DNA of 64,000 bases from a virus (IMGVR_UViG_3300042332_000818:1-64000), one strand, 5' to 3'. Shown: positions 11,416 through 51,100, numbered from the stretch's first letter. Notes: generated from the letters alone by a model not told the origin. Numbers and translations: made by a program.

Positions 11416-14400
11416 ATGAAGTTTTTAAATCATAATCTTTTTACAGGTGATATTACGGTAAACGGTACTACTACTCTTAGTACCGCTACCGGTATCACTC
11501 GTGCAACTGGTGATAATTCAACTCACCTTGCAACAACTGAGTTTGTAAAAGCACAAGGTTATGCTACTACAGCAGCATTATCCGGGTATGTACCTATTAC
11601 TCGTACTATTACAATTAATGGAACAACCCTTGACTTATCAGCAGATAGAACTTGGACAATAGCAAGCGGTGACTATACCTCTAAAGTTCAGCACCAGGTA
11701 AAAGCTGGTGTTGCAATTAATAAAGGTCAAGCTGTTTATGTTACTACCTCTGATGGTACTAACATGATTGTTGGACTAGCGTCTAATGCTACTGAAGCTA
11801 CATCTTCTAAGACTATGGGTCTTTTAGATGCTACAGTTGCTCAAAATGGTTTTGCTAATGTTGTTACAGAAGGTCTATTAGCTGGATTAAATACGGTTGG
11901 TGCGACTGCAGGAGATCCTGTTTGGCTTGGAACCGGAGGTAATCTTATTTATGGTTTATTAAACAAACCGTATGCACCAGCACACCTTGTATTTATTGGT
12001 ATTGTTACTAGAGTAAATGCAAACAATGGTGAGATCTTTGTTAAGGTTCAAAATGGTTTTGAGCTTAATGAGATTCATGATGTAGACCTCAAGACTGTAG
12101 TTCCGGTAAATGGACATATTCTTGGTTTTGATGGTACTCTTTGGGTAAACAAAACAATTGCTACGTGGCTTGGATATACTCCTGCAAATGCAAGCGGTAC
12201 TACTAACTATCTTTCAAAGTTTACTGGAACTACCACTCTAGGCAATTCGCAAATCTTTGATAACGGAACTAACGTTGGTATTGGGAACACATCTCCAACG
12301 GCTAAACTTCAAGTTGGAGCTGAAGCTCACGGAAACGCTACTGGAATTGAAGTTGCAGCTGGTGCTGGAGGAGCAAACCTTCTTGCATTAACAAATAGCA
12401 CTAACCACAACTGGTTTCCATATACTGACGGTTCAAACTATTATTCAGCTGTATCTCATACGTTCAGGAATGAAACGCACGCTACGGATTGGATGACAAT
12501 AACCTCAGCTGGTAAAGTTGGTATTGGGACGACTACTATAACAAAAAAACTAGAGGTTGCTGGAGACTCAGCAAGCGGTACGTTTAGACTTAGACCTCAA
12601 GATGGCACTTACCAAGATTATAGATTAGACATTACAGCTCAAGCCGCAGATGACGGAGCTGTAACTATGGCTATTAAAGAAAATATATTTTTAAAAACAT
12701 ATGGGTACTATAACTTAACTGGATTATCTTTAGGAGTTGCGGGATATACAGATTTAATACATTTAAAAAATTCTAGCAACGTCGGCATTGGTACGACGAG
12801 TCCAAATGAAAAGCTTCACGTAGCTGGAAATGTTCACGCTTATGCGGCTGGAGGAATAAATGCTGGATTGTTTGCAAGTACATCAGCTGGCGCAACAACA
12901 ATTGCTATTCGCTCTAATGGTGTGACTCATTTCAACGGCGGCAACGTCGGCATTGGGACCACTAATCCATCTAACAAACTCCAAGTAGCAAATGGAGATA
13001 TGAGTATCACAACCGGGTACTCATTTATTCTTGCTGACACAGATACAAACTGGAGACTTGGTAGAAACATTATTGTAGAAAACGGAAACCAACTTACTGC
13101 TAATACTATGCAGTTTGTTGCTGCTAATGCAGCTAATGAAGGTTGGCAGTTTGTAGATGATGACGGTAATACCCGTTTTGAAATTGGTGCAAGTACAGGT
13201 AATGCTTGGTTACCTAGTGGTAATCTATATTTGAACAGTAACCTTGCTTGGCATGCTGGTAATGATGGAAGTGGTTCTGGTTTAGATGCTGATTTGTTGG
13301 ATGGCGTTCAACTTGATAATGTAGTTTGGGGAAATGCAAGAGGTACTAATCAGCAGTTAACTAACAACAACAATGATTTAGACAAAACCGGATATTACAC
13401 TAGTGATGGTTTTGTAACAAGACCAAGTGGAGTAGCTAACTGGATGTACATAGAGCACATCAAGTTATACAATGACAATACTCAGTATCAAAAACAAATA
13501 GGTTATGACACATACGATGATCGTATGTGGGTTAGAACAAAGAACGCTGGAACTTGGTCTTCTTGGAAGCAAATATGGACATCTGATAGCCTAACTAACC
13601 TTAACCAACTTACGAACGGTCCTGGGTATATCACCGGATATACTGAAATAGATACGCTGGCAACGGTAGCTGCAAGAGGTAATATTTCCAACAATCAGCT
13701 TCAGATCAGAACTGCTGGTAATACGGCTGGAGGTAATCTTCAGCTTGGACTTTACAGTGATGGAGCGTCCAAGTGGTCATATATTACTTCACAGCATTAT
13801 AATTCGTCTAGTGAACCTGAAGGATTTACTCTGATAGGTGGTCTTGCTCAAAATGGAACCAATGCTGTTGTTATTGGTGGAAACATTTATGAGTCCAACC
13901 CTTCAACAGAAATACAATTTTGGACGCACGACTCATTTACCCACAACTTGGGTGGCTCATTGCGTGCAAGAATTGACGGTGTTGGTAATTTTGGTATTGG
14001 TACCGCTAACCCATTGCACAGGCTATCTGTGGACAGTGTTAGTCAATCAACAATTGCTAAGTTTTATACTTCTGATAATAACTATAGCACTATTGAGGTA
14101 GGTGATACCGGAGACGTATATTCATCTGTATACCTTGCTAGTGATAGTGGCAATGGACAGCTATTCAAGTATGGTTCTGGCTGGGGTGCAGATAGCGGAA
14201 TGGTTGGACTGTACAGTTCTAATGGACCAATTGCTTTACAAGCTGGTGGATCAACTAAAGTATTTGTTACAGCACTTGGTAGTGTAGGTGTTGGTACTAT
14301 TAGCCCAGATTCAAAACTTCAAATAACGTCTAGTAGTTCTAATATATTTAGAATGGTTCGTAGTCAAAACAATTTTGGTTTTGAAGCTACGGCAACATCA

Positions 14401-16332
14401 AGTGGAGGATATGGATTATATGATTATCAAGCTAGTGCTTATGATATATATTTTAAAGCCGGTACTGTTGGTATTGGAACTACTAGTCCATCTACCAAGC
14501 TTGATGTTAACGGTGTAATTACTGCAACAGGTGGTAACTCTACACAATGGAATACAGCATTTGGCTGGGGTAATCACGCTAGTGCTGGCTATTTAACTTC
14601 GTATACTGAAACAGATACACTTGCTAGTGTTACTGGAAGGGGAGCAACTACCTCTTCTAAAGTATTCTTTACTCATAACGCAACCACAGACCCACTATCA
14701 GCTGTAGAAATAAATGGTGGAGGAACCCATACTGGTCTTTACATAAATCCAGCAGCATCAGCTCAGGCTCACGTAAGATTTGGAACAAATGGAGCACTCA
14801 AGTGGCAGATTAGAGCTCCGTTTCAAGATGGTGTTGATACTGCTCTTAAGTTTTACTCTTGGGTTTCTGGTGCTGATAAGTTCCAATTTGAACACAGTGG
14901 TAATGCAATATTTAATGGTGGAACAGTTTGGACTTCAGCAAACGATGGTTCTGGTTCTGGATTAGATGCGGATCTTTGGGATGGTTATCATGTAGGACAA
15001 GCAAGTAACTGGGCATCACGTAGCACTAATGATATTGTTAGTGGTATGATGAGCTGGAGAAATTATGGAAATGGTCACGTAATTTTTGACGCTTCTGCAA
15101 GCTTATCTCCTTCCGGTACTGCTGTTAATAATACAACACCGCAAAATCTTTGGACTGGTACATACCCAACTCTTATGGGTTGGAACGGTTCAAACACTTA
15201 TGGTGTTCGTGTAGATGCTGCAAGAGTTGCAGAAACCGCTAGCAATGCCGGATATGCAACTACAGCGGGTTCATTAACATCAATGAATATTTCCCAGTTT
15301 ACAAATAACTCAGGATATATTGCTGCTGGTTCAACTGTATCTGAAGCAGCGTCTCAGTCAAATGCTACTAGATTTAGATCAGCTGGTGATATTTCACAAG
15401 GAGGTGGAAATCATGCACTGCAAATTTTTGCAGATGCTAATAATGATGCTTTTATGGCGTTTCATATTAGCGGTGATTATGCTGTTCATTTTGGTCTGGA
15501 TGATTCAACAAATAGAATGTATGTTGGTGGTTGGTCCGATGGTACCGGTACTAAATATCAAATCTGGGATTCTAGAGATTTTTCATCTACCAATGTATCA
15601 AACTGGAACACAGCATATGGCTGGGGTAACCATGCATCTCAAGGATATGCTACTCAGACATATGTAAATACCGCAATTTCAAATCTTGTAGACGCAGCTC
15701 CGACTACTCTTGATACTCTTAATGAACTTGCTGCTGCACTTGGTGATGATCCAAACTTTGCTACTACTGTAGCTACAAGCATTGGAAATAAAGTAGCTAA
15801 GGCTGGTGATACCATGACTGGTAACCTTAACTGGGGTGCCACTAATCTTGGTCTTACCTGGGATATGAATACTGATGGTGCATACATCAAGTTCTTCAAT
15901 ACTGGAAACGGTGATACTGATTCAAGATTAGAGTATGCTACATACGATGATGGTAATGAATACCATCGTTGGGTAATCTCTAGTGTTGAGAGAATGAACT
16001 TGAAGGCTGCAGGTCTTACTGTTACCGGAAACGTTACATGTACAGGAACATTCACAGAAACATCTTCTCGTAGATTTAAAGAGAATATTGTAGATCTTGA
16101 ACCTACTGCAGAGAAAGTAGAAAAGCTTCGTCCGGTACGATACAATAAGATTGACAGTGAAGCAACTGAAATTGGTCTTATTGCAGAAGAAGTTGCAGAA
16201 CTCTTTCCGGAGGTTGTAACTTATAATGAGAATGGACAACCTTCTGGTGTGCAATATCAGAGACTATCAGTAATCCTGCTGAAAACAGTTCAAGAGTTAA
16301 CAGAAAGAATCAACAAGCTAGAAAACAAGTAA
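11416..16332 (+). CDS. Long fibre with C-terminal S74 intramolecular chaperone
   Basis: 1638 residues. It opens with FLNHNLFTGDITVNGTTTLS, then a collar-like region, then many copies of the shaft motif VGIGTTSPxxKLxV (around residues 290, 370, 455, 510, 860, 960 and 1020), with copies of a GWGNHASxGY unit (about 1050 and 1400). The C-terminus is a Peptidase_S74 domain: SSRRFKENI at residues 1550-1558 aligns with the canonical S-D-x-R-x-K site, so S1550 and K1555 are the predicted catalytic pair, releasing an 89-residue chaperone after the fibre trimer folds. Known S74 domains cut themselves off T5 and K1F-type fibres. Patches with more GC-rich codons suggest mosaic origin. Confidence 0.85.
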   Translation: MKFLNHNLFTGDITVNGTTTLSTATGITRATGDNSTHLATTEFVKAQGYATTAALSGYVPITRTITINGTTLDLSADRTWTIASGDYTSKVQHQVKAGVAINKGQAVYVTTSDGTNMIVGLASNATEATSSKTMGLLDATVAQNGFANVVTEGLLAGLNTVGATAGDPVWLGTGGNLIYGLLNKPYAPAHLVFIGIVTRVNANNGEIFVKVQNGFELNEIHDVDLKTVVPVNGHILGFDGTLWVNKTIATWLGYTPANASGTTNYLSKFTGTTTLGNSQIFDNGTNVGIGNTSPTAKLQVGAEAHGNATGIEVAAGAGGANLLALTNSTNHNWFPYTDGSNYYSAVSHTFRNETHATDWMTITSAGKVGIGTTTITKKLEVAGDSASGTFRLRPQDGTYQDYRLDITAQAADDGAVTMAIKENIFLKTYGYYNLTGLSLGVAGYTDLIHLKNSSNVGIGTTSPNEKLHVAGNVHAYAAGGINAGLFASTSAGATTIAIRSNGVTHFNGGNVGIGTTNPSNKLQVANGDMSITTGYSFILADTDTNWRLGRNIIVENGNQLTANTMQFVAANAANEGWQFVDDDGNTRFEIGASTGNAWLPSGNLYLNSNLAWHAGNDGSGSGLDADLLDGVQLDNVVWGNARGTNQQLTNNNNDLDKTGYYTSDGFVTRPSGVANWMYIEHIKLYNDNTQYQKQIGYDTYDDRMWVRTKNAGTWSSWKQIWTSDSLTNLNQLTNGPGYITGYTEIDTLATVAARGNISNNQLQIRTAGNTAGGNLQLGLYSDGASKWSYITSQHYNSSSEPEGFTLIGGLAQNGTNAVVIGGNIYESNPSTEIQFWTHDSFTHNLGGSLRARIDGVGNFGIGTANPLHRLSVDSVSQSTIAKFYTSDNNYSTIEVGDTGDVYSSVYLASDSGNGQLFKYGSGWGADSGMVGLYSSNGPIALQAGGSTKVFVTALGSVGVGTISPDSKLQITSSSSNIFRMVRSQNNFGFEATATSSGGYGLYDYQASAYDIYFKAGTVGIGTTSPSTKLDVNGVITATGGNSTQWNTAFGWGNHASAGYLTSYTETDTLASVTGRGATTSSKVFFTHNATTDPLSAVEINGGGTHTGLYINPAASAQAHVRFGTNGALKWQIRAPFQDGVDTALKFYSWVSGADKFQFEHSGNAIFNGGTVWTSANDGSGSGLDADLWDGYHVGQASNWASRSTNDIVSGMMSWRNYGNGHVIFDASASLSPSGTAVNNTTPQNLWTGTYPTLMGWNGSNTYGVRVDAARVAETASNAGYATTAGSLTSMNISQFTNNSGYIAAGSTVSEAASQSNATRFRSAGDISQGGGNHALQIFADANNDAFMAFHISGDYAVHFGLDDSTNRMYVGGWSDGTGTKYQIWDSRDFSSTNVSNWNTAYGWGNHASQGYATQTYVNTAISNLVDAAPTTLDTLNELAAALGDDPNFATTVATSIGNKVAKAGDTMTGNLNWGATNLGLTWDMNTDGAYIKFFNTGNGDTDSRLEYATYDDGNEYHRWVISSVERMNLKAAGLTVTGNVTCTGTFTETSSRRFKENIVDLEPTAEKVEKLRPVRYNKIDSEATEIGLIAEEVAELFPEVVTYNENGQPSGVQYQRLSVILLKTVQELTERINKLENK

Positions 16333-26711: not shown

Positions 26712-27281
26712 ATGGCAACTATCATCCTTACATGGACCCCCACTAATAATGCTACGAGCACCGGACAACAAGTTCAGAGAAAAGTTGCCGGAACTACGAC
26801 ATGGATAACTCTTGCTACAGTTGGACCAGCAATCGCTACTTATACAGATACTACTGCTGTAGATAATATTCTGTATGATTACAGAATTCTTAATGTCTGT
26901 TCCGTTGGTGGTCCAACAGGATCTGGTGTAGTACAACAAAATTCAATTGTTTGTCCGACTATTACTGTCACAAACCCGCAGACGGGTGCAGCAAATACCT
27001 TAGTTGTAAGTTATCCCACTCTTACAGGTGCAATTTCTTATGACTCTATTGAGCTGTTTGCATCTAATGGTACAACTAGTGTACAAGGACCTTTTGATAT
27101 TTCTGCATCAGGTCAGGGTGCTGGTACCTATACCTTTACTTCTCTTGCTTATACAACTTCTTATGTTGTAAAGATTGGTGTGACTGATGGTGTATTTACA
27201 AAATTCTGTCCTGTTAATGCTTCTGTTGGATCTGCTCCTGATTGTGGTGCTCCGTTGAACCTTGTAGCAACACTTGGATAA
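26712..27281 (+). CDS. Fibronectin III-like fibre protein, 189 aa
   Basis: Two beta-sandwich domains. Residues 1-80 read as FN3 beginning at strand B (MATIILTWTPTNNATSTGQQ; then YTDTTAVDNILYDYRILNVC), and residues ~85-170 form a second Ig/FN3-like domain. It ends in CGAPLNLVATLG, which looks like the first strand of another FN3 domain, and the next cistron starts in the same frame at strand B. Likely part of a fibre or surface decoration that binds glycans or chains with its paralogues. Confidence 0.6.
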   Translation: MATIILTWTPTNNATSTGQQVQRKVAGTTTWITLATVGPAIATYTDTTAVDNILYDYRILNVCSVGGPTGSGVVQQNSIVCPTITVTNPQTGAANTLVVSYPTLTGAISYDSIELFASNGTTSVQGPFDISASGQGAGTYTFTSLAYTTSYVVKIGVTDGVFTKFCPVNASVGSAPDCGAPLNLVATLG

Positions 27282-27287
27282 TAAGTT

Positions 27288-27599
27288 ATGGCAACTATAA
27301 ACCTTAGCTGGACACCTGCTACTGGTGCTAATATAATTGAGCAAAGAATTTACAGAGGTATTACCTCTGGTTCTTTGTCATTACTTGCATCTGGTTTGTT
27401 GCCCACTACAAATACTTATTCTGATACTACCGTATTGGATAATACTACGTACTATTATAGAATAGATTCTATTTGTACTATTGGAGGACCAACTCCTAGT
27501 AATGTTGCAACTGTTACAACTCCAGCTCCTTGTGCACCTGCTTCTGGAGTATCTGCAACAAGTTTGTTTACAGTTGACTTTAATTATACTCTAACATAA
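27288..27599 (+). CDS. Fibronectin III-like protein, 103 aa
   Basis: A single FN3-like domain (MATINLSWTPATGANIIEQR; YSDTTVLDNTTYYYRIDSIC), clearly paralogous to the genes on both sides, ending in CAPASGVSATSLFTVDFNYT. It is separated from both neighbours by in-frame TAATAA double stops and short spacers, with all three genes in the same frame. Short for an independent fibre, so it probably works as a subunit of a larger assembly. Confidence 0.6.
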   Translation: MATINLSWTPATGANIIEQRIYRGITSGSLSLLASGLLPTTNTYSDTTVLDNTTYYYRIDSICTIGGPTPSNVATVTTPAPCAPASGVSATSLFTVDFNYTLT

Positions 27600-27608
27600 T
27601 AAATTAAT

Positions 27609-28616
27609 ATGTCCATATCATCTAAAATAACTATTCAATGGACACCAAGTCCTAATGCTTTGACTCAATCAGTTGAAAGAGCGTTAGTTTCAACAGGACC
27701 TTGGACAACTTTAGTTTCAGGTTTAGGGCCAACAGTAAATTCATATGATGATACTACAGTTGTTGATAATCCGCCAACATTATATTATTATAGAGTATTA
27801 ACATATTGTGATGCCGAAAGTGCTCCAACGCCCAGTGCAATAAAATTTGCGTATAGTAATAATTGTGCAACACCTACTAACCCTTATCCAGATGAAACTG
27901 TTTTCGGGTTATGGAGTACAAATGCTGGGCTTATAACAAGTTTTAACTATTATGATCATTATGCTGATATACGCGGTTTAACTGCACTTAAAACTGTAAC
28001 ATCACCTGCTGGAAAGATTAGGGTAGTTTGTCATAAGTGTGGTCAAACGGTCCAACCTGTTGGTGTTTTTGCTCAATATGGTGATGTTTCTTATTTAAGT
28101 AACCAAGGTAATATTGCTCAATATTTACCAGCAAGTCCTTCTGGGCTTGGTGGTATACAGTATAATAATAGAGGTAATGTAACTAGAAAAATTAGATTTG
28201 GTAATTCAATAATAGATAATATTGCTGCACATTTTGGTAATGGTTCAGGTAATATATTTAACCAAGTCGTTCTTAGTTCTGGAACTTATACTCTTAAAAA
28301 TCATACTCAGCTTAGATTAGGAAAATATATTTTTGGTACTACTACTGATCAGACTGCAGATTTAAATGCACTAAACTCAACAAATCTTTATGTTGCAGTT
28401 TCAATGTCTGATTATAAGTGTCATATATATATCTATCAAGCACAAAGGAATAGTAATCTTGATATTACTGCAGGTGGGCAGACAATGCTTGGATTTAATT
28501 TAAGCTATGTTTCCTTTGTTATTAATAATAATTATGCTGTATATAGTATTATTGATTCTCAAATACTTAATTTTAATGATCAGCCTAATGCAAATTTTAA
28601 ATTCTTTAATCTCTGA
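27609..28616 (+). CDS. FN3-like protein with unique C-terminal domain, 335 aa
   Basis: Residues 1-90 are a third FN3-like paralogue (ITIQWTPSPNALTQ; DDTTVVDN; YYYRVLTYCD). Residues ~95-335 are unlike any other gene here: Asn/Tyr/Ile-rich with beta character, and codon use much richer in A/T than the neighbours (AAT, TTT, TTA dominate). It could be a host-binding tip acquired from another phage. Ends in TGA, without the trailing 'C-A-P' strand found in the other FN3 genes. Confidence 0.55.
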   Translation: MSISSKITIQWTPSPNALTQSVERALVSTGPWTTLVSGLGPTVNSYDDTTVVDNPPTLYYYRVLTYCDAESAPTPSAIKFAYSNNCATPTNPYPDETVFGLWSTNAGLITSFNYYDHYADIRGLTALKTVTSPAGKIRVVCHKCGQTVQPVGVFAQYGDVSYLSNQGNIAQYLPASPSGLGGIQYNNRGNVTRKIRFGNSIIDNIAAHFGNGSGNIFNQVVLSSGTYTLKNHTQLRLGKYIFGTTTDQTADLNALNSTNLYVAVSMSDYKCHIYIYQAQRNSNLDITAGGQTMLGFNLSYVSFVINNNYAVYSIIDSQILNFNDQPNANFKFFNL

Positions 28617-28627
28617 GACTAACATTT

Positions 28628-28647
28628 GAAATACTGGAAAGTATTTC
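28628..28647 (+). repeat. Perfect inverted repeat next to a promoter-like element
   Basis: GAAATACT and AGTATTTC flank a GGAA loop. The repeat ends exactly where the GTATATT element at 28648 begins, and a second near-palindrome (AGAGTAT-A-ATACTCT, 28662-28676) follows that element. It may be an operator or a terminator stem without a T-tract. Confidence 0.45.
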
Positions 28648-28662
28648 GTATATTTTATTGTA
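28648..28662 (+). promoter_or_regulatory. Promoter-like element GTATATT-N4-TGTA
   Basis: Lies 47 bases upstream of the start at 28710 and is bracketed by two inverted repeats, as expected for a promoter with a binding site for a regulator. Confidence 0.5.
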
Positions 28663-28709
28663 GAGTATAATACTCTGCTGGAGCCACTCATAACTTATTT
28701 TCTTGTCAA

Positions 28710-29933
28710 ATGATTCCAGTATCGTCAAATACAATTACCAACGGCTGTAATCCGATCTCTTCAAACTGTGTGGTTTGGCAAGGTCCGGATATTCCCTGCA
28801 TAAATATTTGCACTGGGGATACTGTATCCGATGTGGTAGCTAAACTTGCCACTGAACTATGCACAGTTCTTGATCAGACAAGTCTTACTAATCTTGATCT
28901 GTCTTGCTTGAATCTTAATTCTCAAGACGTTCCTGCTGATTTTTCTGAATTGCAGCAACTCATTATTGATGAGATCTGCTCTTTAGGTGGTAGGTGTACT
29001 GCTCTTGAGGGTGGTGGTGGATCTGGAGGATCTTCATCTACTGTTACAGCAACTCTTCCGGTTTGCTTACAGTACACCAACCAGCAGAATGATTTGGTTA
29101 CCGTACTTCCTATTGACGATTACGCTGAACTTGTAGCAGCTAGAGTTTGTACACTTCTATCAAACATTACTACTATCAACTCAACGTTGGTTAGTCATAA
29201 TACTAGAATTACTGCTCTTGAGAATGCTACTTCTACTGGATCTACAATCCCTCAAGTAACACCTAACTGTGTTCTTCCTTCTGTACTTACCGACATTGAT
29301 GATGTTGTAGAAGCTTTGGAAGAGCAGTTTTGTAACTTGAGAACAGTAACAGGAACCTCAACTCAGCTTCTTGCTTCTACTACTTACCAGTGTCCCGGTC
29401 TAAACGTAGACAACAGATTGTCTGGATCTGGTACAATGTCTACTCTTGAAGGTTGGAACTCTAACCCTACTACTCTTTCACAGTCACTTACAAACATGTG
29501 GTTGACTATTTGTGATATTAGAGCCGCCGTTAAGACAATTCAAACTACTTGCTGCAATACTACTTGTGACGATATTCTCTTCACCTTTGCAGGAACTCTT
29601 AGCGTAAGCACTCTTACTCTAAACTTTAATGGAAGCTCTGCTCCTGTTGGATTTGATGAGTGTAATGTTAATGGTGCACTTGTAACTATTACAGATGGTA
29701 TGGGTGGTACTTACAGCACAAGAGTTCAAGTTCTTGATGCTCTTGCTGGTACTGGTACTGCACAGATTAACCTTGCTTCTTCTGGCTTGAACATTTACGT
29801 GGACTACACTGTAACAGTTACTTTCTGTGTAACAGATGGTAACATCACTTGTGATAAGTCTAAAACTATTACTGTAGAAAATCCTGCTAGTGCATGTGCT
29901 CTACCAACAGGTGTAACTGCAACAATATCTTAA
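28710..29933 (+). CDS. Cys-rich fibre/structural protein with C-terminal beta domain, 407 aa
   Basis: The N-terminal region (NGCNPISSNCVVWQGPDIPC; then ICTGDTVSDVVAKLATELC) is a pattern I recognise from structural proteins of Bacteroidota phages. Residues ~45-95 and ~135-165 are helical, separated by a Gly/Ser linker (residues ~101-111). Residues ~285-395 form a beta sandwich (FTFAGTLSVSTLTLNFNGSS). It ends in CALPTGVTATIS, an FN3 first-strand-like peptide, one stop and one codon before the next in-frame gene. Many Cys suggest disulphides or metal links. Probably a trimeric or decoration fibre. Confidence 0.6.
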   Translation: MIPVSSNTITNGCNPISSNCVVWQGPDIPCINICTGDTVSDVVAKLATELCTVLDQTSLTNLDLSCLNLNSQDVPADFSELQQLIIDEICSLGGRCTALEGGGGSGGSSSTVTATLPVCLQYTNQQNDLVTVLPIDDYAELVAARVCTLLSNITTINSTLVSHNTRITALENATSTGSTIPQVTPNCVLPSVLTDIDDVVEALEEQFCNLRTVTGTSTQLLASTTYQCPGLNVDNRLSGSGTMSTLEGWNSNPTTLSQSLTNMWLTICDIRAAVKTIQTTCCNTTCDDILFTFAGTLSVSTLTLNFNGSSAPVGFDECNVNGALVTITDGMGGTYSTRVQVLDALAGTGTAQINLASSGLNIYVDYTVTVTFCVTDGNITCDKSKTITVENPASACALPTGVTATIS

Positions 29934-29936
29934 GAT

Positions 29937-30605
29937 ATGGCAACACTAAGTATAGCCTTTAATACCTCGGTAAATGCTGTAAAGTATAGAGTTAAGTATC
30001 GTGTAACCGGAACAAGCGCTTACACTACTGTTTATACTACAACATCTCCGGTAAACCTTACTGTAAACTGCGGTACTGCTTATGAAGGTACTGTAGAAGC
30101 AATTTGTGTTGAGGGTATTCCTTGCAATGGTTACGAGATTAATAATACTGGAGATGAAATTGGTACTCTAGAATATACTGATTGTGCTACTGGAAATACT
30201 TCTCATGTAGATATTAGTGAATACTCTACATTCTTTGTTTGTTCTAGAACAGAACCTGTTCCAACAGGAAGTGCGGCACCTCAAACAGGTGTTACTCAAG
30301 TTGCTTTAGATGCATGTATCTCTCCTGTTCAAGAAGAAGGAAGCGGGTTGGCTTATTGGACTGCTCCGGCATCAGCATGTGCTTACTACTACACTGTTAG
30401 TGTTTGTCCATCTAGTCTTAATAGTACTCTTCCTCCGAACAATGAAGTTAAGTCTAACACTTCTATTCCTATTGGAACTGTAGTTCAGCTTACTGGTGTT
30501 CCTTATGTAGATGGTTGCTACACTATTACCGCTGTTTCAGTATTGCAAACATCAGCTGTTAACGTAGCTCAGACTTTCTCTAACTGTAATGCTTGTATAG
30601 CTTAA
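29937..30605 (+). CDS. FN3-like, Cys-containing protein, 222 aa
   Basis: Begins at what would be strand B of an FN3 domain (MATLSIAFNTSVNAVKYRVK; then CGTAYEGTVEAICVEG). The remaining residues (~75-222) are beta-rich with spaced Cys and resemble extracellular binding domains (SAVNVAQTFSNCNACIA at the end). It lies in the same frame as the preceding gene, separated by TAA GAT, so the two cistrons together would make one complete FN3 domain. Confidence 0.55.
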   Translation: MATLSIAFNTSVNAVKYRVKYRVTGTSAYTTVYTTTSPVNLTVNCGTAYEGTVEAICVEGIPCNGYEINNTGDEIGTLEYTDCATGNTSHVDISEYSTFFVCSRTEPVPTGSAAPQTGVTQVALDACISPVQEEGSGLAYWTAPASACAYYYTVSVCPSSLNSTLPPNNEVKSNTSIPIGTVVQLTGVPYVDGCYTITAVSVLQTSAVNVAQTFSNCNACIA

Positions 30606-34670: not shown

Positions 34671-37600
34671 ATGGCTAAACAGAATCAAGAAGGAACGTCA
34701 CCCATTGCCTTTAACAAGGGGATGGTAAAAGATAATGCTGATCTGTTTCACCCTGATGGTTCTTGGTCACATGCACGTAATGCTGTGAACTCTTCATTTC
34801 AGGGTGACGTAGGTGTATTATCTAATGAACCTTCTAACAAGTTCTGTGCACAAGCCCCATATACGGTTATCGGTACAATCCACATCACTGATGATGAGTG
34901 GGTAATATTTTCTACAGATAATAACAATAGTGAGATTGGCTACTTTAAAGAAGCCACTTGCACTTACACTAAAATTGTCAATGCCCCGTGCTTAGCATTT
35001 GATAAGAATCATCTTATTACAGGAGCCTCTAGAGAGAACTTTGACTGCAGTAGGCAGATCTATTGGGATGATGGAAAAAACCCATCACGTACACTAAATA
35101 TTAATAACCCTCCGTACATAACTACAAGAACTGTAGTTAATGACTGTGTGGTAAATACCCCAACAGATGAACTCAATTGTGAAGCCCTACGTTTGGCTCC
35201 TCTCTTTAAAGTACCATGTATTTCAATGGGAAGAGGAGACAATGCTGGCACTTTATATAATGGCTCATATCAAGCAGCAATCGCCTACTCAATCAACGGA
35301 CAACGAGTAACAGATTACATTGCTCTTTCTAATGTTGTATCATTGTTTGATCACGATAATGCAAATGGTTCTCTTGAAATTAAGATTACCGGTTTAGAGA
35401 CAGAAGCTTTTGAAGAGTATGAACTTGTAATTATTAGTAATACTAAGACCTTACAAGCTGATGCTAAGATTTTGGGTTACTACAGTACTAATCAGAATAT
35501 TATTAGTATTGACAATGTTGCAATCTCTCTTGTAACAGTTGAGCTATCTAGAATTCCTATTCTTAATTCTGTATATGAGAAGTCTGATGCAATGTTTCCA
35601 ACTGGAGACTACCTTATCAGAACAGGAGTATACGAGCGTTTTAATTTTAACTACCAGCCACAAGCAAACAAGATTAAGAGCAGATGGGTTGCTGTAGAGT
35701 ATCCAGCAGATTACTATCTAAATGGTAGTAATCGTGGTTACATGCGCGATGAGCAGTATGCTTTCTTTATTCGTTGGGTTTATAACACAGGTGAAAGATC
35801 ACTTGCATACCATATTCCTGGAAGAGCGGCATTATCCTCTGATTTAGAGAATGTTGTTGGTAATGACGTAATTTATTCTAATAAGAGTAAGCGTTGGCAG
35901 AACTACAATACTGCTACAATTACTTCTGCACAGACAGAATTACTTTCTGATGGAGGTAAGATTATTGGAAGAGGTGAAATGGGTTACTGGGAATCTACAG
36001 AAAGATATCCTGATAACAAGCCGGAACGTTGGGCTGAATTGTGTGGTAAACCTATTAGACACCACAAGTTTCCGGATGATGGATTGATTCCTAGACATAA
36101 TGTTGATGGAACTAAGATTGTAGTTCTTGGCGTTGACTTTACCAATATTACCGTTCCTGTAGATAATGACGGTAACCGAATTGATTCTATTGTAGGTTAT
36201 GAGATTCTTAGAGGATCAAGACTTGGTAATAAAACTATTCTTGCTAAGGGTCTTATTAACAACATGGGTACTTACCAGTTGCCTGGTGAGAGAGAAGCAG
36301 ATGATCAAACTATCCTCTTTACAAACTATCCGTTTAATGACCTAAGAAAGGATCCCTTTCTTTCTACCAACTTTGTAAAGGGTGGAACTGCACTTAATAA
36401 TCTACAGGTTGCAGAGCTAGATACCTATAAGGATAATAAAAGATACTTTTCTTTTCACTCACCTGAGTTTGGTTTTAACAAGACTTTTTTATCTGCTACC
36501 GAGCTTAAGGTTTATGGTGAAGCATACGGTAAAACAAAAGGTAAGTTTATTGAACCCAGTGAACATCCCAAGCATGTAATTATTAGAAACCTTACAGCTT
36601 TGGTTTCTTTGCTTTTGGGTCTTGGTAAGTTGGATAAACACTTAAGAGGTCAAAGAACATTTACATTACCAAATGTTCCAAGTATAATAAGAGGTGGACT
36701 TCTTCCTCCCTCTGCAGGAACTCTTGATAGATGGGCTACCACACTTGGCACTTTGCTTGATCCTTCAGGTGCTGCTCAATGGGCATCACTTGGTTTTTTA
36801 ACACAAGATATTGAAAGTTCTGATCTTAATGATTTACCCCAACCTTTAAGAGCTGCGGCAGCTATTCCTGCCATTATTAGGGGACTGACCGAGGGTACAA
36901 ATGACTACCTTGATAAGTTTTATGATTTTCTTCAGTACAGACAGCATGCCTTACAACATGTTGCTTATGGATTTTATAATCAGTTTAAGAAAGCACCGGT
37001 AGGTAATACTCGTAGATTGATTTCAGAATCTGCTTATGTGTATCCTCAACTTCAACAGTTTGAAAACAGAATCTCTGTAAATAATCTTTATAGAAGTAGA
37101 ACTGTAGTATTTAAAACTGGTAGTGATCTACAGCATCCTACTATTGTAGATGATTCTCGTTATACTGTAGGTCAGTCTCGTTCTTGGAAGAATCCGTTTG
37201 ATGAAAAGGTTCGTAATATTTCTTCGCACTATGGTGCAATGAAGATTGATTACGAGAATCAATATGGTCAGATTGATAGTACTATTATTCTTCCAACTGG
37301 TTGCAGATTTGTAATTCCTGGATTTGTACAAAATGGACAGAAGTTTACTTCTCCATTAGTATTTGGTGGTGATATCTACATCAATCGTTATACAGAGAAG
37401 AATACAATGTTCTTCTTTAATAACTGGATGACAGATCAGCCAGATGGAACTGTATTTGACTATACAAAATACATTAACGTTCCGTTCCCAACATATTGGA
37501 TGAATACAGAAAGATGGGAGCTTGAAGAGTTCTTCACTGGAATTGGTGACAATATATCTAACTGGGTTTCAGGATTGTTTAGCAGTAGCATTGCACAACA

Positions 37601-39374
37601 GAATAGAGAAACTATTCCTGATGCCGCAACTCTTCCTTCCAATCTTCATAACCTAGACATGAATAGAAGTCTGGTTAATAGTATAGGTTTTGGGATTAGA
37701 TATGGTTACATCTATTTGTTTAGCTCTGGTGTTAAAGACTTTTTTGTAGAGTCTGAGTTTAATACTGCACATAGAGATCATGATGATAGACCTGAAACTC
37801 GTCACTATGATCATAAAGAATACACAAGACTAGAAGATTTATTTGATATTAAGATTATTACTACTGGTAACTACTACAAGTACGATCTTACTCTTAATAT
37901 CTCTAACTTTCCAACTCAAAAGTATACTCACTCTATTCTTCAAGCTCGTTACTACAATCCGGTAACCGCAGAAGATTGTGAGATCTACTATCCCACAAGA
38001 GCTATTTACTCTTTACCCTCTACAAGTAGTACGCAGATTAAAGATCCTTGGAAGGTTTTCTTAACTAATAACGTTTATGATTTTAATAGCCGTGTTGCTA
38101 ATATTAAGATTAACGTTGATGGAACGTTTTTAATTCTGCAGGAGAACCATCCTCCTTTGAGATTCTTAGCTCAGGATACTCTTCAGTTGGATCTTGGTAC
38201 TAAGATCTCTGTGGGTGATGCTGAAGTATTTGAGAGAGCACCACAGGCTTTGCTTGCTGCTGATTCAGGATATGAATATGGTACATGTCAGAGCACGTTT
38301 GGATCAACGTCTACACCTTACGGTGTATTCTGGATGTCATCTAAGCAAGGTAAGATTTTCCAGTATTCTGAAGGATTAAAAGAAATTTCAAGAACCGGTA
38401 TGAAGTGGTGGTTGTCACGTTACATGCCCTTTATGATTCTTGAAGACTTTCCGGATTTTCCGCTTACTGATAATTCTGTAAATGGTGTTGGAACATCGGT
38501 AATCTTTGATAGCACCGAAGAGCTTGTATACTTCAGTAAGAAGGACTACATGCTTCGTCCAGAGTTTAAAGGACAACTTGTGCATGTTAGAGATAATCAA
38601 TTTGCTCTTGCTAATAACCGCCTTGTAACAATTACTCTGCAGGATCCAAATTATTTTGCTGAAGCTTCTTGGACTTTGAGTTATGACTTGAAGACCAACT
38701 CTTGGGTATCTCTACATGACTGGCATCCGAATCTTATGATTCCTTCACAGTCACACTTCTTCTCAATTAAGGATGACAAACTGTGGTTGCATAATGATAC
38801 TTGTCAAAGCTTCTGTAACTACTACGGAGCGGATTACCCATTTGAAGTAGAGATTCTATCTAATACAGGGGTAACGGTAACCACACTTCGTAGTGTAGAA
38901 TACCAAGTAGAAGCTTATCAATACAGAGAGAACTGTTCTGACGCACACCATGTGTTAGACTTCAATTTCGATAGAGCTGTTGTGCATAACTCTGAACAGG
39001 TTTCTGGTATGCTAAAACTGAATCTTACTCCTAAGAATAACTCTGCTGCAATTCTTACTTACCCTAGAATAAACGTTTCTGATATTGATATTCTTTACAG
39101 TAAGGAAGAGAATAAGTATAGATTCAATCAGTTCTGGGATATTACCCGTGACCGTGGTGAGTTTAGCACTGTACGTAGAACTATTTGGAATACTGAACCC
39201 AATGGTTATATCAGAAATCTTAATACTGTAAACCTAGACTATACTAAGGATCCGCATCAGCGTAAGAAGTTTAGACACTATCATAACCACATTATGTTTA
39301 GAAAGAACTTTAGTGGTAACAATCATATTCTTTTGAACCTAGCTACTGTTAAAGTACAATACTCACCACGATGA
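34671..39374 (+). CDS. Large tail muzzle / stabilisation-type protein, 1567 aa
   Basis: Opens with FNKGMVKDNADLFHPDGSWS and then repeated beta-propeller-like blades (VIGTIHITDDEWVIFSTDNN; GYFKEATCTYTKI). This start resembles P22 gp10-like stabilisation proteins and the crAss-like muzzle protein that plugs the distal tail tube. Residues ~635-720 are an unusually hydrophobic, Leu/Gly-rich insertion (TALVSLLLGLGKL), possibly a membrane-active or gate segment. The C-terminal third returns to propeller-like repeats (SWTLSYDLKTNSWVSLHDWH). Ends in TGA overlapping the next ATG. Confidence 0.7.
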   Translation: MAKQNQEGTSPIAFNKGMVKDNADLFHPDGSWSHARNAVNSSFQGDVGVLSNEPSNKFCAQAPYTVIGTIHITDDEWVIFSTDNNNSEIGYFKEATCTYTKIVNAPCLAFDKNHLITGASRENFDCSRQIYWDDGKNPSRTLNINNPPYITTRTVVNDCVVNTPTDELNCEALRLAPLFKVPCISMGRGDNAGTLYNGSYQAAIAYSINGQRVTDYIALSNVVSLFDHDNANGSLEIKITGLETEAFEEYELVIISNTKTLQADAKILGYYSTNQNIISIDNVAISLVTVELSRIPILNSVYEKSDAMFPTGDYLIRTGVYERFNFNYQPQANKIKSRWVAVEYPADYYLNGSNRGYMRDEQYAFFIRWVYNTGERSLAYHIPGRAALSSDLENVVGNDVIYSNKSKRWQNYNTATITSAQTELLSDGGKIIGRGEMGYWESTERYPDNKPERWAELCGKPIRHHKFPDDGLIPRHNVDGTKIVVLGVDFTNITVPVDNDGNRIDSIVGYEILRGSRLGNKTILAKGLINNMGTYQLPGEREADDQTILFTNYPFNDLRKDPFLSTNFVKGGTALNNLQVAELDTYKDNKRYFSFHSPEFGFNKTFLSATELKVYGEAYGKTKGKFIEPSEHPKHVIIRNLTALVSLLLGLGKLDKHLRGQRTFTLPNVPSIIRGGLLPPSAGTLDRWATTLGTLLDPSGAAQWASLGFLTQDIESSDLNDLPQPLRAAAAIPAIIRGLTEGTNDYLDKFYDFLQYRQHALQHVAYGFYNQFKKAPVGNTRRLISESAYVYPQLQQFENRISVNNLYRSRTVVFKTGSDLQHPTIVDDSRYTVGQSRSWKNPFDEKVRNISSHYGAMKIDYENQYGQIDSTIILPTGCRFVIPGFVQNGQKFTSPLVFGGDIYINRYTEKNTMFFFNNWMTDQPDGTVFDYTKYINVPFPTYWMNTERWELEEFFTGIGDNISNWVSGLFSSSIAQQNRETIPDAATLPSNLHNLDMNRSLVNSIGFGIRYGYIYLFSSGVKDFFVESEFNTAHRDHDDRPETRHYDHKEYTRLEDLFDIKIITTGNYYKYDLTLNISNFPTQKYTHSILQARYYNPVTAEDCEIYYPTRAIYSLPSTSSTQIKDPWKVFLTNNVYDFNSRVANIKINVDGTFLILQENHPPLRFLAQDTLQLDLGTKISVGDAEVFERAPQALLAADSGYEYGTCQSTFGSTSTPYGVFWMSSKQGKIFQYSEGLKEISRTGMKWWLSRYMPFMILEDFPDFPLTDNSVNGVGTSVIFDSTEELVYFSKKDYMLRPEFKGQLVHVRDNQFALANNRLVTITLQDPNYFAEASWTLSYDLKTNSWVSLHDWHPNLMIPSQSHFFSIKDDKLWLHNDTCQSFCNYYGADYPFEVEILSNTGVTVTTLRSVEYQVEAYQYRENCSDAHHVLDFNFDRAVVHNSEQVSGMLKLNLTPKNNSAAILTYPRINVSDIDILYSKEENKYRFNQFWDITRDRGEFSTVRRTIWNTEPNGYIRNLNTVNLDYTKDPHQRKKFRHYHNHIMFRKNFSGNNHILLNLATVKVQYSPR

Positions 39375-45386: not shown

Positions 45387-48182
45387 ATGGCATCATATAT
45401 AGACAATATTGCACAGAACTCTCAGATTGCGGCAGTACTTCCGTACACGCCGGATTGGGATTTTTTGTCCAGTAGCCAAAAGACTTTAGCGCAAATGCAG
45501 ACTAATGCGTTTGAAAGCTTTTACGATAAGTATTCAACGCTTTTGAAATCTGATTTGTTAAACTCAGAGAATCAGCAGTTTAGAGATAAGTTTATGACAG
45601 AAGCTGACAACAAACTTAAAATTGTTGGCAGCACTGATCTTACTGATCCAAGAAGTCTTAGTAATGCTAATTCAATTTTTGATAGTTTGGTAAACAATCC
45701 TAGATATGTAAAGGATATTATGTTTACTAAAGCAGTTAAAAAGGATTTAGATTATGCAGACAATCTTAGATCTTCATTAGATGAAAATGTAAGATCTCTC
45801 TATAACCCCTACTCTGTACAGGATATAATGTTTAGCGTAGAGGACTTTAAAAATGCTAAGGGTGATGCAATTTTAGGTATCGGCAATCCTCGTTATGTAC
45901 AGAATATAGATCTTTGGTCTCAAGCTGAAAAGTATTTTGAGGATAAAGATTGGAAAAGAACATATGATCAAAGATCTGGAGGATATATTTATACCAGTAA
46001 GAACGGTAAGCTTATAGAGGATGATGTTTATCAGTACCTCTACAATAGATTTTCTGAGGACCCTCTTGTTAAAGACTACCTTAATGTGCAGTCTAGAGTT
46101 GAAAGAAGAAGCTTTATAGAAAACAATCTTGATGCTTTTGGTGGAGATAAGACTAGAGCAGAGATGGCTTATCTTAAAACAAAGTGGAATACTATTTCTG
46201 AACCAATCAGAAAGCAGGTTGTCAAGTATGATGAAGAACTAGCAAAACTTGAATATGGTAATGCTGAAGTTCAAAGAGCTAGACAAAATCAACCCGCAAC
46301 GGGTAATCTTCGTAGACAAAGCGATCAACAGAGTGTTGTAGAATTGTTTAATGAGCTAATGACAAAGAAGGAATCAATGCCTTCTTTGGATCCTGCCATT
46401 AGTGAAGCTCTATCTAGTAACGATTTCTCTAACATTGCTGGTATTATATCAAAAATTGATGATATCAGTTTCAAAGCTAGCATTACTAAAATTGCCGAAG
46501 TATTTTCTAGAAGAGGAGAAGAGCAAAGTATGAAAGCTGATGAGTATGCATTAGCTCAGCACAGAGCAGGTCTTGATGATTGGAAAAATCAGCAACAGGT
46601 TGCAAGACAATTTGATGCTGATTTCCGAATGGCACAGCTTAAAGGTGAGATAGTAATTCCTGGTATGGGTGTATCTCAAACCGGTACTCCAATCTCTTCC
46701 GGTACAGATCCTGTAATGAGTGATAAAAATCCTGAAGATTATCCTAATTATAATTATAAGGAACTTGCTGAGAGAACTACCGATGCTCGTAATGCTGGCT
46801 ATGAGGCAATTAAACAATGGTCTCAACTTACAGGAACACCCGTTAGAAATTCTGCTGGTAAAGTTATTCCTCTTGATGGATTAGATAAACTAACAGAAAA
46901 AGAGTTTCAGTCTTATATATCCAAGGCTGAAGTTGTAAGCAAAAGAGGTACAAGAGATATTGAAGATTCTGATGGTGCAATTAATTTGCGTCAGAAAATT
47001 AGAATTTACAATGAAAAAACTGGTATTGAAAAGGGTCTTCTTAAAATAGAGCAAGAAAATTTGCTAAAGTCAATAGACAAGGCTTCTAATTCTGTTATTA
47101 ATGATGAAGAAGGTAAGCAAGCTTTTGCTTTAATGCGTGAGATTGTAAAGTCAGGAATTGTTAACCCTCAAACTATAAAAGAGAAGTTTGAAGAAAAGTG
47201 GGATGCTGAAAGAGATGCTAAAATAGCTGCTGCCCCACTTATTGGGCCTTGGTTAAGCAGTCCTAAATTCGGAGTATGGGCTGTTACTGAGAGTGGTAGC
47301 GATGCTTGGAATACTTGGTTTGGTGGTACATCTATACTAGATCCAGGTACTTGGGCAGGAAAAGAATATGAAGTTTCTACCTACTATTCTAAAGAGGCAA
47401 AGAGTTTAGCATCTGCTGTGCAAGGTCGTGATACAAGAGTAGGTGGAGAAGAAAGAAAGGGTACCAACTTTGGTATGGCTTCTTCAAAAGGTTCTGCGGT
47501 TAATATTGTTGTTAATCAAGCTAGTCAATCTTTATCTCAAAATCTTGGCTCTGTTGGTTTTGGTACATTGGAGAGTGCTATTGATGGCAGTCTTCCAAAT
47601 CAAGATGCTGCTGAAACAGCTTTTAATACTATTGTTAATGTTTTAAATACAAAAACAACAGGTAACACAAATCCGAGAAACATGCAGGTTGAAGGATTTC
47701 AAGATAATGATGGTAATCAGTTTATTAGAATTATTCCTGATTCTAAAACTGCTGATGAGTTAATGGGGTCCAAAGAAAACCCCGGGCCTTTAAAAGATAG
47801 AGTTACTTCAGATCTGCTTGCTCAAGGTGTTGTTGTTAAACTAGCTCCGGCTGGTGCGCTACCTAAAAGCACTTTTGATTTTAGAACTACTCCAATTGAA
47901 GCGGCTATTAATGTTAACGGTGGAGAGTTAACTATAGGCGGAGGTTATTATGATGGAGGAAAAGTTACTATTACTAGAAATGGTAATGGTTCTTATCAAT
48001 ACTATGGAGAGAAGTATATTTACGATCCAAATGAAGGTGGTTATAGAGAAGTTAATATTTCTAAAGAGATAAATAAATATATTAACGAAAATAATTTTTC
48101 TATTCAACAAGCTAAAGACTGGATAGATACATACTTAAACGCAAATGCTGCAAAAAATATAACATTGGAAAAACAAGACTAA
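45387..48182 (+). CDS. Large internal virion protein candidate, 931 aa
   Basis: Helical, charged protein with Asp/Asn/Lys-rich segments and few Cys. The N-terminal ~300 residues (TPDWDFLSSSQKTLAQMQTN; RSSLDENVRSLYNPYSVQDI) resemble large proteins encoded just before the giant polymerase in crAss-like phages. A Gly/Trp-containing region near residues 610-660 (AAPLIGPWLSSPKFGVWAVT) could be membrane-interacting. It overlaps the giant gene by one base (TAATG), so the two are probably made together, packaged in the head or tail barrel, and ejected. Confidence 0.6.
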   Translation: MASYIDNIAQNSQIAAVLPYTPDWDFLSSSQKTLAQMQTNAFESFYDKYSTLLKSDLLNSENQQFRDKFMTEADNKLKIVGSTDLTDPRSLSNANSIFDSLVNNPRYVKDIMFTKAVKKDLDYADNLRSSLDENVRSLYNPYSVQDIMFSVEDFKNAKGDAILGIGNPRYVQNIDLWSQAEKYFEDKDWKRTYDQRSGGYIYTSKNGKLIEDDVYQYLYNRFSEDPLVKDYLNVQSRVERRSFIENNLDAFGGDKTRAEMAYLKTKWNTISEPIRKQVVKYDEELAKLEYGNAEVQRARQNQPATGNLRRQSDQQSVVELFNELMTKKESMPSLDPAISEALSSNDFSNIAGIISKIDDISFKASITKIAEVFSRRGEEQSMKADEYALAQHRAGLDDWKNQQQVARQFDADFRMAQLKGEIVIPGMGVSQTGTPISSGTDPVMSDKNPEDYPNYNYKELAERTTDARNAGYEAIKQWSQLTGTPVRNSAGKVIPLDGLDKLTEKEFQSYISKAEVVSKRGTRDIEDSDGAINLRQKIRIYNEKTGIEKGLLKIEQENLLKSIDKASNSVINDEEGKQAFALMREIVKSGIVNPQTIKEKFEEKWDAERDAKIAAAPLIGPWLSSPKFGVWAVTESGSDAWNTWFGGTSILDPGTWAGKEYEVSTYYSKEAKSLASAVQGRDTRVGGEERKGTNFGMASSKGSAVNIVVNQASQSLSQNLGSVGFGTLESAIDGSLPNQDAAETAFNTIVNVLNTKTTGNTNPRNMQVEGFQDNDGNQFIRIIPDSKTADELMGSKENPGPLKDRVTSDLLAQGVVVKLAPAGALPKSTFDFRTTPIEAAINVNGGELTIGGGYYDGGKVTITRNGNGSYQYYGEKYIYDPNEGGYREVNISKEINKYINENNFSIQQAKDWIDTYLNANAAKNITLEKQD

Positions 48183-51100
48183 TGGACTTTAATGCAAATC
48201 CCCTGTTTCCAAATACTTCAAATCCAAAAGTTTCAGGAATTAGCCCTGAACTTTTAGCTGATTTTAATAGTGCTTTAGCACAAGCAGCACCTGAGTTTAG
48301 ACCTGAGCCAAATCCGTTGTTTACAAGGTTTCCAAATGAAAACTTTGGATTGTATGAAACGAACTATGAGCGCTATGCTCGTCGTTCAAACTTTGATGAA
48401 TTAGGCTTCTCTCCTTATAGAGACAATGATGCAATCTATAATGCTGAAGCAAACTTTGCAGGAGAGCTTTGGAGAGGTCTTCAGGGTGCTGCAATGTTAA
48501 CCGGCAGCACTGCTTTTGATATGCTGAAAGGTACTGGAGATATTTTAACTCTTGACTTTAAAGGGTTAATGGCTCCAGATATGGGTGCTGCGGCTGAATT
48601 TGAAGATATTAATAGAATCTATGGTTCTACAAAAGGTGGTGCTACAGGATTTATTGCTAATGGTGCAACTCAGCTAGGTTTTATTGGTGGAATGGTTTTG
48701 GGTTCGTTGCCTGAAAGTGCAGCACTTGCCTTTGCTACTGCTGAAGCCGGTGGTGCTGCAGGATTTTTAAACATTGGTCGTAAAATTGGTCAGGGTTTAA
48801 GAATTATTGATAAAGCTGCTGATGCTACTGCTGCAGCAAAAGCAGCACAAGCTGCTAGCGCAACAAGCACTGTACTAAAGAATGCTGAAACGGTTAGAGG
48901 TGCTGGTGCTGTAGCTGATTGGTTGGCTACTACTTCACCACAAATTGCAAAGATTACAGGTAATCCTATTCTGAAGTTTTTTAATCCTTTAGAAAATACT
49001 GTAGGATATATTGATGATGTAGCTAAAGCTGCAAGTGCTGGCACGGCACTACCGTCTATTGGTAAGGGTGTTGGTGCTGTAATGCGTGATGGTCAAATTT
49101 TTAAAGCTGCCGCAGTAGAAGCTAGTCTTGAAGGAGGTTTTGTTGCAAAGAATCTTAGTGATAAAGCTCTAAATGAGTTTTATGAAACTAACGGAAGACT
49201 TCCAAATGAAGAAGAATTAGCTGAGATTAAAGAAAAAGTAACTGAAGCTGGAGCAAGAACAACCGCTTGGAACTTGCCTGTAATTCTTTTTACAGATAAG
49301 CTTCTTTTTGGACCTATGCTTAATAAGCTAGATAAAACAATTTCTAGAGGTATTGGTGCTGACTTACAAGGTCTTGTCAGAAATGCTGATGGTACAGTTG
49401 CAGCGAAACAAGTATTGGGTGCCAGTGCTAGAAAAAGTGTAACACTTGAAGGTAAAGAGTTTTTAAATTCTTTACTTCAGCCTGGAAAATACTTGACTAG
49501 AGGTAGTGCATTCTTAAAGAACGGACTTGGTGAAGGTGCTCAAGAAGTGTTTCAAGAGTATGCTTCTAAAACAATGGAAGATTACTATGGTGATATTCTA
49601 TCTAGTCCTATGGGTATTCCCAAAATGGATGTGATGGGATACCTTAAAGAGAACATTAGTAACACTGGAGCCGATGAAGGGCTAGCGTTTTTGTCAGGAG
49701 CTTTTGTTGGTGGTGTTGCCGGAGGTGCAATGAGTAAAGTTGCAAAAGCAGCTAAGATTAATGCAGGTATCAATACTTTTATAAACCAGACAAATGAATC
49801 TGGAGAGAAGATGTCTTTTAAAGAAAGATATCAGGCATATAAAGCTGAGCAGCAAAAAATAAATAATGAGCTTGCTGATACTATTAATTCTGCAATTCAA
49901 TCACCGGTTGATCTTTTTGAACGCTCTATTAGAACCAATGAGGATACTAAAAAGCTTCTACGTCAAATTCAAATTGGAAACCTTATCCAGGACGAGAAGC
50001 TTGTAAGAGATGCTGCAGAAGAGTTAAGATTTAATAAGATCTACACTGCTCTTGATACGGGAACATTTGATTTGCTTACAGGTAAACTTGCTACTCTTAA
50101 GCAGCTTGATGATGTTGGTATTGTAGAAGCAACCGGATCTGCTAATGCAGAAGAAGCTAGAGCTAGACTTGATAAGACTATACAGAGAGCAAACGAAATT
50201 AAAAACAGATACGATAGCGTTAAGTCTAAGTATCCTAATCCGTTTGATTACTCAATGTATGAATATGCAACTGATGCATACAACCAAGCATACTTGGCAA
50301 ACAAAGGTTATGAGGAAGCGCTTAGAGATTACATCTTTATGGGTGAGACCATTGACAAACTTAAAGAAAGAAATGCTTCTTTAAAGTCTGCATTTGGTTC
50401 TACTTCTATTGCTCCTAAGATTACAAGTCTTGATGTAGATGTAATTACAAACTTGAGCAATCTACGTAAAGAGATGTCTTTACTTTCTGATGAAGTGCTC
50501 GCGGAAGATGCAGCTGTCACACCAGATCAAAAGAAAATTATTGCTAATAAGAAAGCTAGACTAAAAGTTCTCACTGAATACAATGATGCTCTAAATGCTT
50601 TTCATGCTGCCGAGAAAGAAGGTAAGGGTACTAAGCGTAAAGAAGCTAAATTAAAGTCATCTTTTGCTAAAGTAGTTAGTCATCTTAATGAAGTATCTGA
50701 AGTAGAGTCACAATACTCTGAGGATTCTTTTAATGAGCTATTTGCACAGCTTAAAGACTACCAAAGAAACGATATTGATAGTCTTCAACTTGGTGCACGT
50801 GCAGCTACGTTGGGTAACTACAGCACACTTATAGACTATGCTAAAAGGCATAGTGCTGCAATGAATGATGTTTTTGTAAACAAAAGAAAATACATCAAGA
50901 GATCTGTAGATAACTTTATGTCTGCTGTTGCACAGAATCAAAACCTTCACAGTCTAAAAGAAGCGGGCTATGCTATTCCGGAGGAAGAGCTTATGCCATA
51001 CATTGAAGAAGGTAAGATTCCACAAAATCTTATTTCTTTAAAGAATGGTACAACTGTACCAACAACAGATCCTTCTATTGAAGGGGTTCTTGAAACAATA

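Follow-up and report, generated by a model that had tools for sequence, protein, structure and literature searches.

The viral record IMGVR_UViG_3300042332_000818 comprises 119,389 bp, and its first 64 kb (positions 1 to 64,000, hereafter the window) contain six small genes located 5' of the ring protein genes. These are labelled by length as P189, P103, P335, P407, P222 and P173, and several of them begin or end inside an FN3 domain (Table 1). The window belongs to a crAss-like (Crassvirales-like) phage, as identified from its ring protein and muzzle homologues: the gene at 33119-33790 matches ring protein 2 (PF25702 CrAss_Ring_2, E 7e-18), and the region 34671-39374 is homologous to muzzle or structural proteins of phi17:2, phi4:1 and csAssE-Sib. 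P407 and P173 occupy the place of the tail hub genes gp38 and gp39 in phicrAss001, and their profiles gave no sequence match in that region of phicrAss001.

Table 1. Small genes, donor tails and junctions of the window, followed by chains of related genes in other loci (lengths in amino acids, aa).
Feature	Position	Strand	Description
P189	26712..27281	+	Two-sided: first FN3 from strand B (MATIILTWTP), complete second FN3, C-terminal donor tail
P189 donor tail	27243..27278	+	CGAPLNLVATLG; predicted strand A
P189/P103 junction	27279..27290	+	TAA (27279-27281), TAA (27282-27284), GTT (27285-27287), ATG (from 27288); in frame
P103	27288..27599	+	Two-sided: one FN3 from strand B (MATINLSWTP), atypical 22-residue tail
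P103/P335 junction	27597..27611	+	TAA TAA ATT AAT ATG; in frame; non-standard split
P335	27609..28616	+	Acceptor-only: FN3 from strand B, then large C-terminal region
P407	28710..29933	+	Hub-like: N-terminal SSNCVVWQGPDIPC module, penultimate beta domain, C-terminal donor tail
P407 donor tail	29895..29930	+	CALPTGVTATIS; predicted strand A
P407/P222 junction	29931..29939	+	TAA (29931-29933), GAT, ATG (from 29937); in frame
P222	29937..30605	+	Acceptor-only: FN3 from strand B (MATLSIAF), distal part sharply divergent among siblings
P173	30620..31141	+	Small, Cys-rich, hub-like; FN3 complete with its own strand A
Chain L083/L173/L174			221-185-206 aa
Chain L156/L181			487-177-256 aa
Chain L177/L179			91-182-81 aa
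Chain L141/L143			294 or 560-180-168 aa
Chain L154			555-177-178-255 aa

A preliminary description of the window had noted that P189 closes in an FN3 strand A and P103 opens at strand B behind an in-frame TAATAA plus GTT, and that P407 and P222 are related in the same way across TAA plus GAT. The sequence bears out both junctions. The two-sided build of P189 was derived from sequence together with profile analysis of homologous units, and the counterpart of its tail in a sibling reads CGAPLNLTAVVA. At the P407/P222 junction the 3-nt spacer differs among four relatives (GAT, GAG, ACC and AAC), with ATGGCAACA constant. The third junction, P103/P335, had been placed with the other two; it is indeed in frame with a double stop, but it is not a split of the same kind. 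It is considered different because the P103 tail (CAPASGVSATSLFTVDFNYTLT, 27531-27596) spans 22 residues from its cysteine and appears to hold strand A plus a B-like strand, while P335 begins MSISSKITIQWTP and carries its own B strand. The P103 tail exceeds the other donor tails in length and is kept in the sibling locus L004.

P189 itself starts at strand B (26712-26740), and no donor tail for it was found upstream in the window or elsewhere in the 119-kb record. P407 may act as its donor, or the donor may be missing; if P407 forms an oligomer, its several tails could be divided between P189 and P222. A weak N-terminal similarity over a hub-like module (profile E 5e-5 among relatives) links P407 with P173, and the two may be hub paralogues. 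In other clades, P173 homologues sit between donor and acceptor genes.

Relatives were collected from viral contigs, where 200 candidates for P407 were found and 80 loci taken. A further 80 loci were gathered via the neighbouring exonuclease, and extra scans using two-sided units yielded few loci. All data are sequences of metagenomic contigs. Among named phages, tblastn with P407 or P222 gave no match, and the P407 profile gave weak matches in Leptolyngbya phage Lbo-JY46 only, where no split is present; a sequence search of the PDB with P407 returned nothing. Many P407 relatives end in a C..PT.V.A.L tail located right behind the final strand of the beta domain, and in the same clusters a gene starting at strand B follows (MATLTINF, MNITLTWTP, MAPVPATITVTF). 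In the P407 homologues of L011 and L044, threonine-rich runs (TTTTTTTTTSTTTSTTTTPP) are found where the donor tail would be.

The predicted position of the split is the A-B loop of FN3. The preliminary description had suggested a comparison with homologues in which the genes may be fused, and four such natural fusions were found (L066, L106, L108 and L112), which show that the genes have been split or fused at precisely this position in evolution. In these, P407 is joined to the next FN3 and the sequence is continuous across the split point, with a short loop linking strands A and B; the fused VPCPSNIAATNIEPDGVTVTF compares with the split VPCPIVTSVSATLI, a stop, and MNITLTWTP. Of the fused relatives, L066 lies nearest to the window, and it is also without the upstream P189-P103-P335 cluster. 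The spacing between the cysteine and the aromatic residue of strand B has a median of 20 in 21 intact segments and of 19 (interquartile range 18-20) in 43 pairs of split tail and head. The tail measures 12 residues from the cysteine in 24 of 41 cases.

Pfam fn3 does not match P189, P103, P335 or P222, and matches P173 below threshold. A profile was therefore built from the complete internal domains of these proteins, which matches the related acceptors from strand B onwards and P222 itself weakly. The first domains of acceptors begin at profile positions 13-19 in 45 of 53 recognisable cases (about 15, strand B). Internal domains start at position 5 or earlier in 89 of 132 cases, and at 13 or later in 5 of 132. 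Furthermore, the true tail adds 2.2-2.4 bits to the FN3 profile score, compared with 0.3-0.6 bits for shuffled or unrelated tails (p 5e-4 to 3e-7 over related pairs); this test was scored on the first domain alone, since the second domain confounds it. Mis-called starts hiding a strand A were considered and rejected, as a possible upstream in-frame start exists in only 1 of 70 acceptors. With the profile starting at B, 69 of 70 acceptors having no other start and the model of P222 beginning at B, the acceptor fold is predicted to lack one strand.

In the AlphaFold2 model of P222 alone, of low to moderate confidence, the strands are B-C-C'-E-F-G with no A, and Foldseek returned nothing at E <= 0.001. 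P407 and P222 were also joined across the stop, for modelling only. In this single-chain AlphaFold2 model the tail is folded as a strand that leads into strand B and the remaining FN3, and Foldseek retrieves FN3 tandems from E 2e-5. The models are weak but consistent with a split FN3, and they concern single chains. The preliminary description had named, as a refutation, confident models of complete domains with a disordered, unconserved trailing strand; this is not what was obtained, as the model of P222 lacks strand A and the tail is conserved.

The presence of tail and acceptor is linked across relatives. The tail was scored on P407, and acceptors were counted in the interval from P407 to the next conserved gene; applied to all genes the donor pattern is too loose, with G strands of P173-like proteins matching it, and it was restricted to P407. 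Among 93 genomes with P407, 40 have both tail and acceptor and 50 have neither, while one has the tail only and two the acceptor only (Fisher p = 1e-22 before kinship correction). Random internal cuts of the same proteins give the chance level of these simple patterns, with 9.0% donor-tail-like and 3.8% strand-B-head-like. In the acceptor-only genome L111, the tail is carried by the gene immediately upstream. In the tail-only genome L151, the FN3 gene has its own strand A (MCQSPTNLIINTSTTEISISW) and the match of the P407 tail is spurious. On a tree of the N-terminal part of P407, 9 changes are needed for the tail and 9 for the acceptor. Six independent comparisons on well-supported branches give 4.6 in the same direction and 0.5 in the opposite direction with raw labels; after two label corrections, made once the data had been seen, they give 5.7 and 0 (sign test p about 0.03). 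With kinship taken into account, the supporting comparisons are thus few (six) but point uniformly one way. The related loci show the split to be conserved among these phages and not a local accident.

The genes are further arranged in ordered clusters. Five cluster types consist of a donor-only gene, then at least one two-sided unit that starts at B and ends in A, and then an acceptor-only cap (chains in Table 1). This order matches the initiator, linker and terminator logic of a pilus tip. The identity of P222 to its L004 sibling drops from 87% to 23-33% along its length (54% overall); over P335, P407, P173 and the exonuclease, the window and L004 share 95-98% identity. The divergence of P222 suggests module exchange, and the split FN3 may carry a rapidly exchanged distal part, as expected for a receptor-binding tip.

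The best explanation for this locus is probably that virion appendage proteins are joined by donor-strand complementation of FN3 domains. Strand donation between subunits was one of the options named in the preliminary description, and co-occurrence, spacing, selection on the tails and the donor, linker and cap chains make it the best-supported working mechanism. A donor such as P407 or P189 would end in a free C-terminal FN3 strand A of about 12 residues, and an acceptor such as P222 or P103 would begin at strand B, leaving an open edge and a groove. Each protein would be translated and folded separately in the cytosol. The tail would then fill the groove of its neighbour, producing a normal seven-stranded FN3 and a non-covalent link. 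Donor-only, two-sided and acceptor-only proteins would in this way form short ordered chains on the hub-like protein, which would thereby be joined to swappable adhesin-like modules, the acceptor-only ends being fast-changing and probably receptor-binding. Supply of the missing strand by another subunit is supported by the sequence comparisons; tail insertion, virion location and receptor binding are what we infer. A broader proposal is that initiator, linker and cap subunits assemble on the virion into an ordered heteropolymer that resembles a pilus but needs no chaperone, and that placing the gene boundary within the domain provides a standard plug for the exchange of whole genes for receptor-binding tips. 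This is held tentatively, at slightly less than an even chance.

Limited stop readthrough or frameshifting would add some covalent fusion to the short forms, and all three junctions of the window are in frame, as the preliminary description had pointed out in raising this option. In the relatives, however, the frame is not kept: over 43 adjacent donor-acceptor pairs, counted after removing P173-like false donors, the gap phases 0, 1 and 2 occur 13, 21 and 9 times. The gaps range from -1 to about 85 nt, with a one-base gap in the L014/L020 clade (e.g., TAATATG), and both TAA and TAG occur as stops. A double TAA, unfavourable for readthrough, is present at two junctions of the window, and the spacer codon varies. 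A P173-like gene separates donor from acceptor in the L086, L053 and L070 clades, a distance that readthrough could not bridge. Because the gaps occur in all phases and a P173-like gene intervenes in several clades, readthrough or frameshifting is rejected as a general mechanism, and even as a partial contribution it is very improbable. Alternatively, the split may be a functionless fission, in which stops interrupted an ancestral fusion, leaving strand A as a disordered remnant and an acceptor whose six strands fold well enough without it. The existence of natural fusions would fit this, as would P222 alone, modelled as six-stranded with a predicted local distance difference test score (pLDDT) of 66-80 over the first 60 residues. 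However, the tail is kept over distant clades at the constant length given above, and new start codons lie exactly at strand B in many settings across the whole range of gaps. The tail codons have a ratio of nonsynonymous to synonymous differences (pN/pS) of 0.56 over 15 pairs (pS 0.335, pN 0.188), compared with 0.35-0.39 for the rest of the protein, and changes in close pairs are mainly conservative (V/I, S/T). The tails are thus under purifying selection, and since they are also absent where acceptors are absent, neutral fission is considered unlikely. Quite unlikely, too, is that the tail serves as a strand in cis or between identical P407 subunits in a self-swapped homo-oligomer, the acceptor FN3 pairing elsewhere. 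P407 does seem to resemble an oligomeric hub or fibre protein, and the tail hubs of phicrAss001 are locked by swapped C-terminal segments (PMC10172136). Self-swapping nevertheless does not explain why tail and acceptor are present or absent together, why the spacing of tail plus head equals that of an intact domain, or why donor-only, two-sided and acceptor-only genes form clusters.

Several points weigh against donor-strand complementation. Donors and acceptors in the window are not one-to-one, as P189 has no obvious donor and the P103 tail is odd, and L135 has an acceptor with no donor seen, an exception without explanation. The tail and head patterns were drawn up after inspection of the data, and the genomes are related, so the p of 1e-22 overstates the case. 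Some tail pairs (L070/L072) are poorly conserved, and divergent pairs raise pN/pS. In the joined model, for which 9 rows were used, the pLDDT at the joined domain is 50-60, and the extra P407 domain may account for some of the contrast in Foldseek hits.

Bacterial pili are the textbook case of donor-strand complementation. In chaperone-usher pili (type 1, P, Caf1), Ig-like subunits lacking one strand are completed by the terminal extension of a neighbour, and they form an ordered chain in which some are donor-only, some two-sided and some acceptor-only. The proposed phage system would resemble them in both the completion of a missing strand and the ordered roles. It differs in that their N-terminal extension replaces strand G, whereas the phage genes use a C-terminal strand A, an FN3 fold and a virion operon. 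The closest likeness is to the type V pili of Bacteroidota (FimA, Mfa1), where a C-terminal donor strand fills the groove of an absent N-terminal strand A. In those pili the subunit is synthesised with strand A, which a protease removes after lipoprotein export, whereas in the phage strand A is absent from the acceptor gene. Strand B comes first in the acceptor proteins, and neither an N-terminal extension nor a signal peptide is visible ahead of it. The only sequence comparison made with type V pili is a sub-threshold match of P103 to Fimbrillin_C (E 0.09). No chaperone or usher genes were recognised in the open reading frame (ORF) tables of the record, for which no dedicated search was made, and the operon is a phage structural one. 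With neither chaperone nor usher recognised and no visible export signal, membership of a pilus family fails: the proposed system would work like donor-strand pili, but outside those families. CrAss-like phages are known to infect Bacteroidota (PMC10136315).

FN3 domains are also known to exchange strands. Strand swapping has been seen in crystal structures (PDB 4m6a, among the Foldseek hits; references in PMC7140400), and in FN3 folding, strands A and G pack last (PMC4330816). In Tencon (PDB 4m6a), strand A is swapped between chains, as proposed for the phage; Tencon is engineered and like chains swap, whereas the phage split is natural and lies between genes. The phicrAss001 hubs THA/THB and gp22 lie in the same neighbourhood (ring 2, ring 1, muzzle) and their subunits interlock via an extended C-terminal segment, with no FN3 split described in the part of that report available (PMC10172136). 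Searches of open full-text literature turned up no account of phage appendages joined by strand donation, an absence that is not proof. If true, donor-strand complementation would provide a general, testable rule for the attachment of variable tips in many environmental crAss-like phages, and would account for short FN3 genes without annotated function. In addition, the natural split-FN3 pairs would be usable as protein connectors.

A 4.3-kb contig (L183, RFPL01000044.1) from a metagenome-assembled genome labelled Sphingomonadaceae has the split region, with a 506-aa P407 homologue ending CVSPEPVTAFLIN and a gene starting MSTLYVKFTPP; it is probably phage DNA binned into that genome. The 245,646-bp contig IMGVR_UViG_3300030098_004828 carries the exonuclease/P407 region twice, in divergent copies (L035 and L068), and is possibly two genomes joined in assembly. 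Elsewhere in the window, positions 11416-16332 encode a big fibre-like protein that has an S74 endosialidase-chaperone domain at its C-terminus (E 1.3e-11), and 48182-61660 form a single ORF of 4,492 residues.

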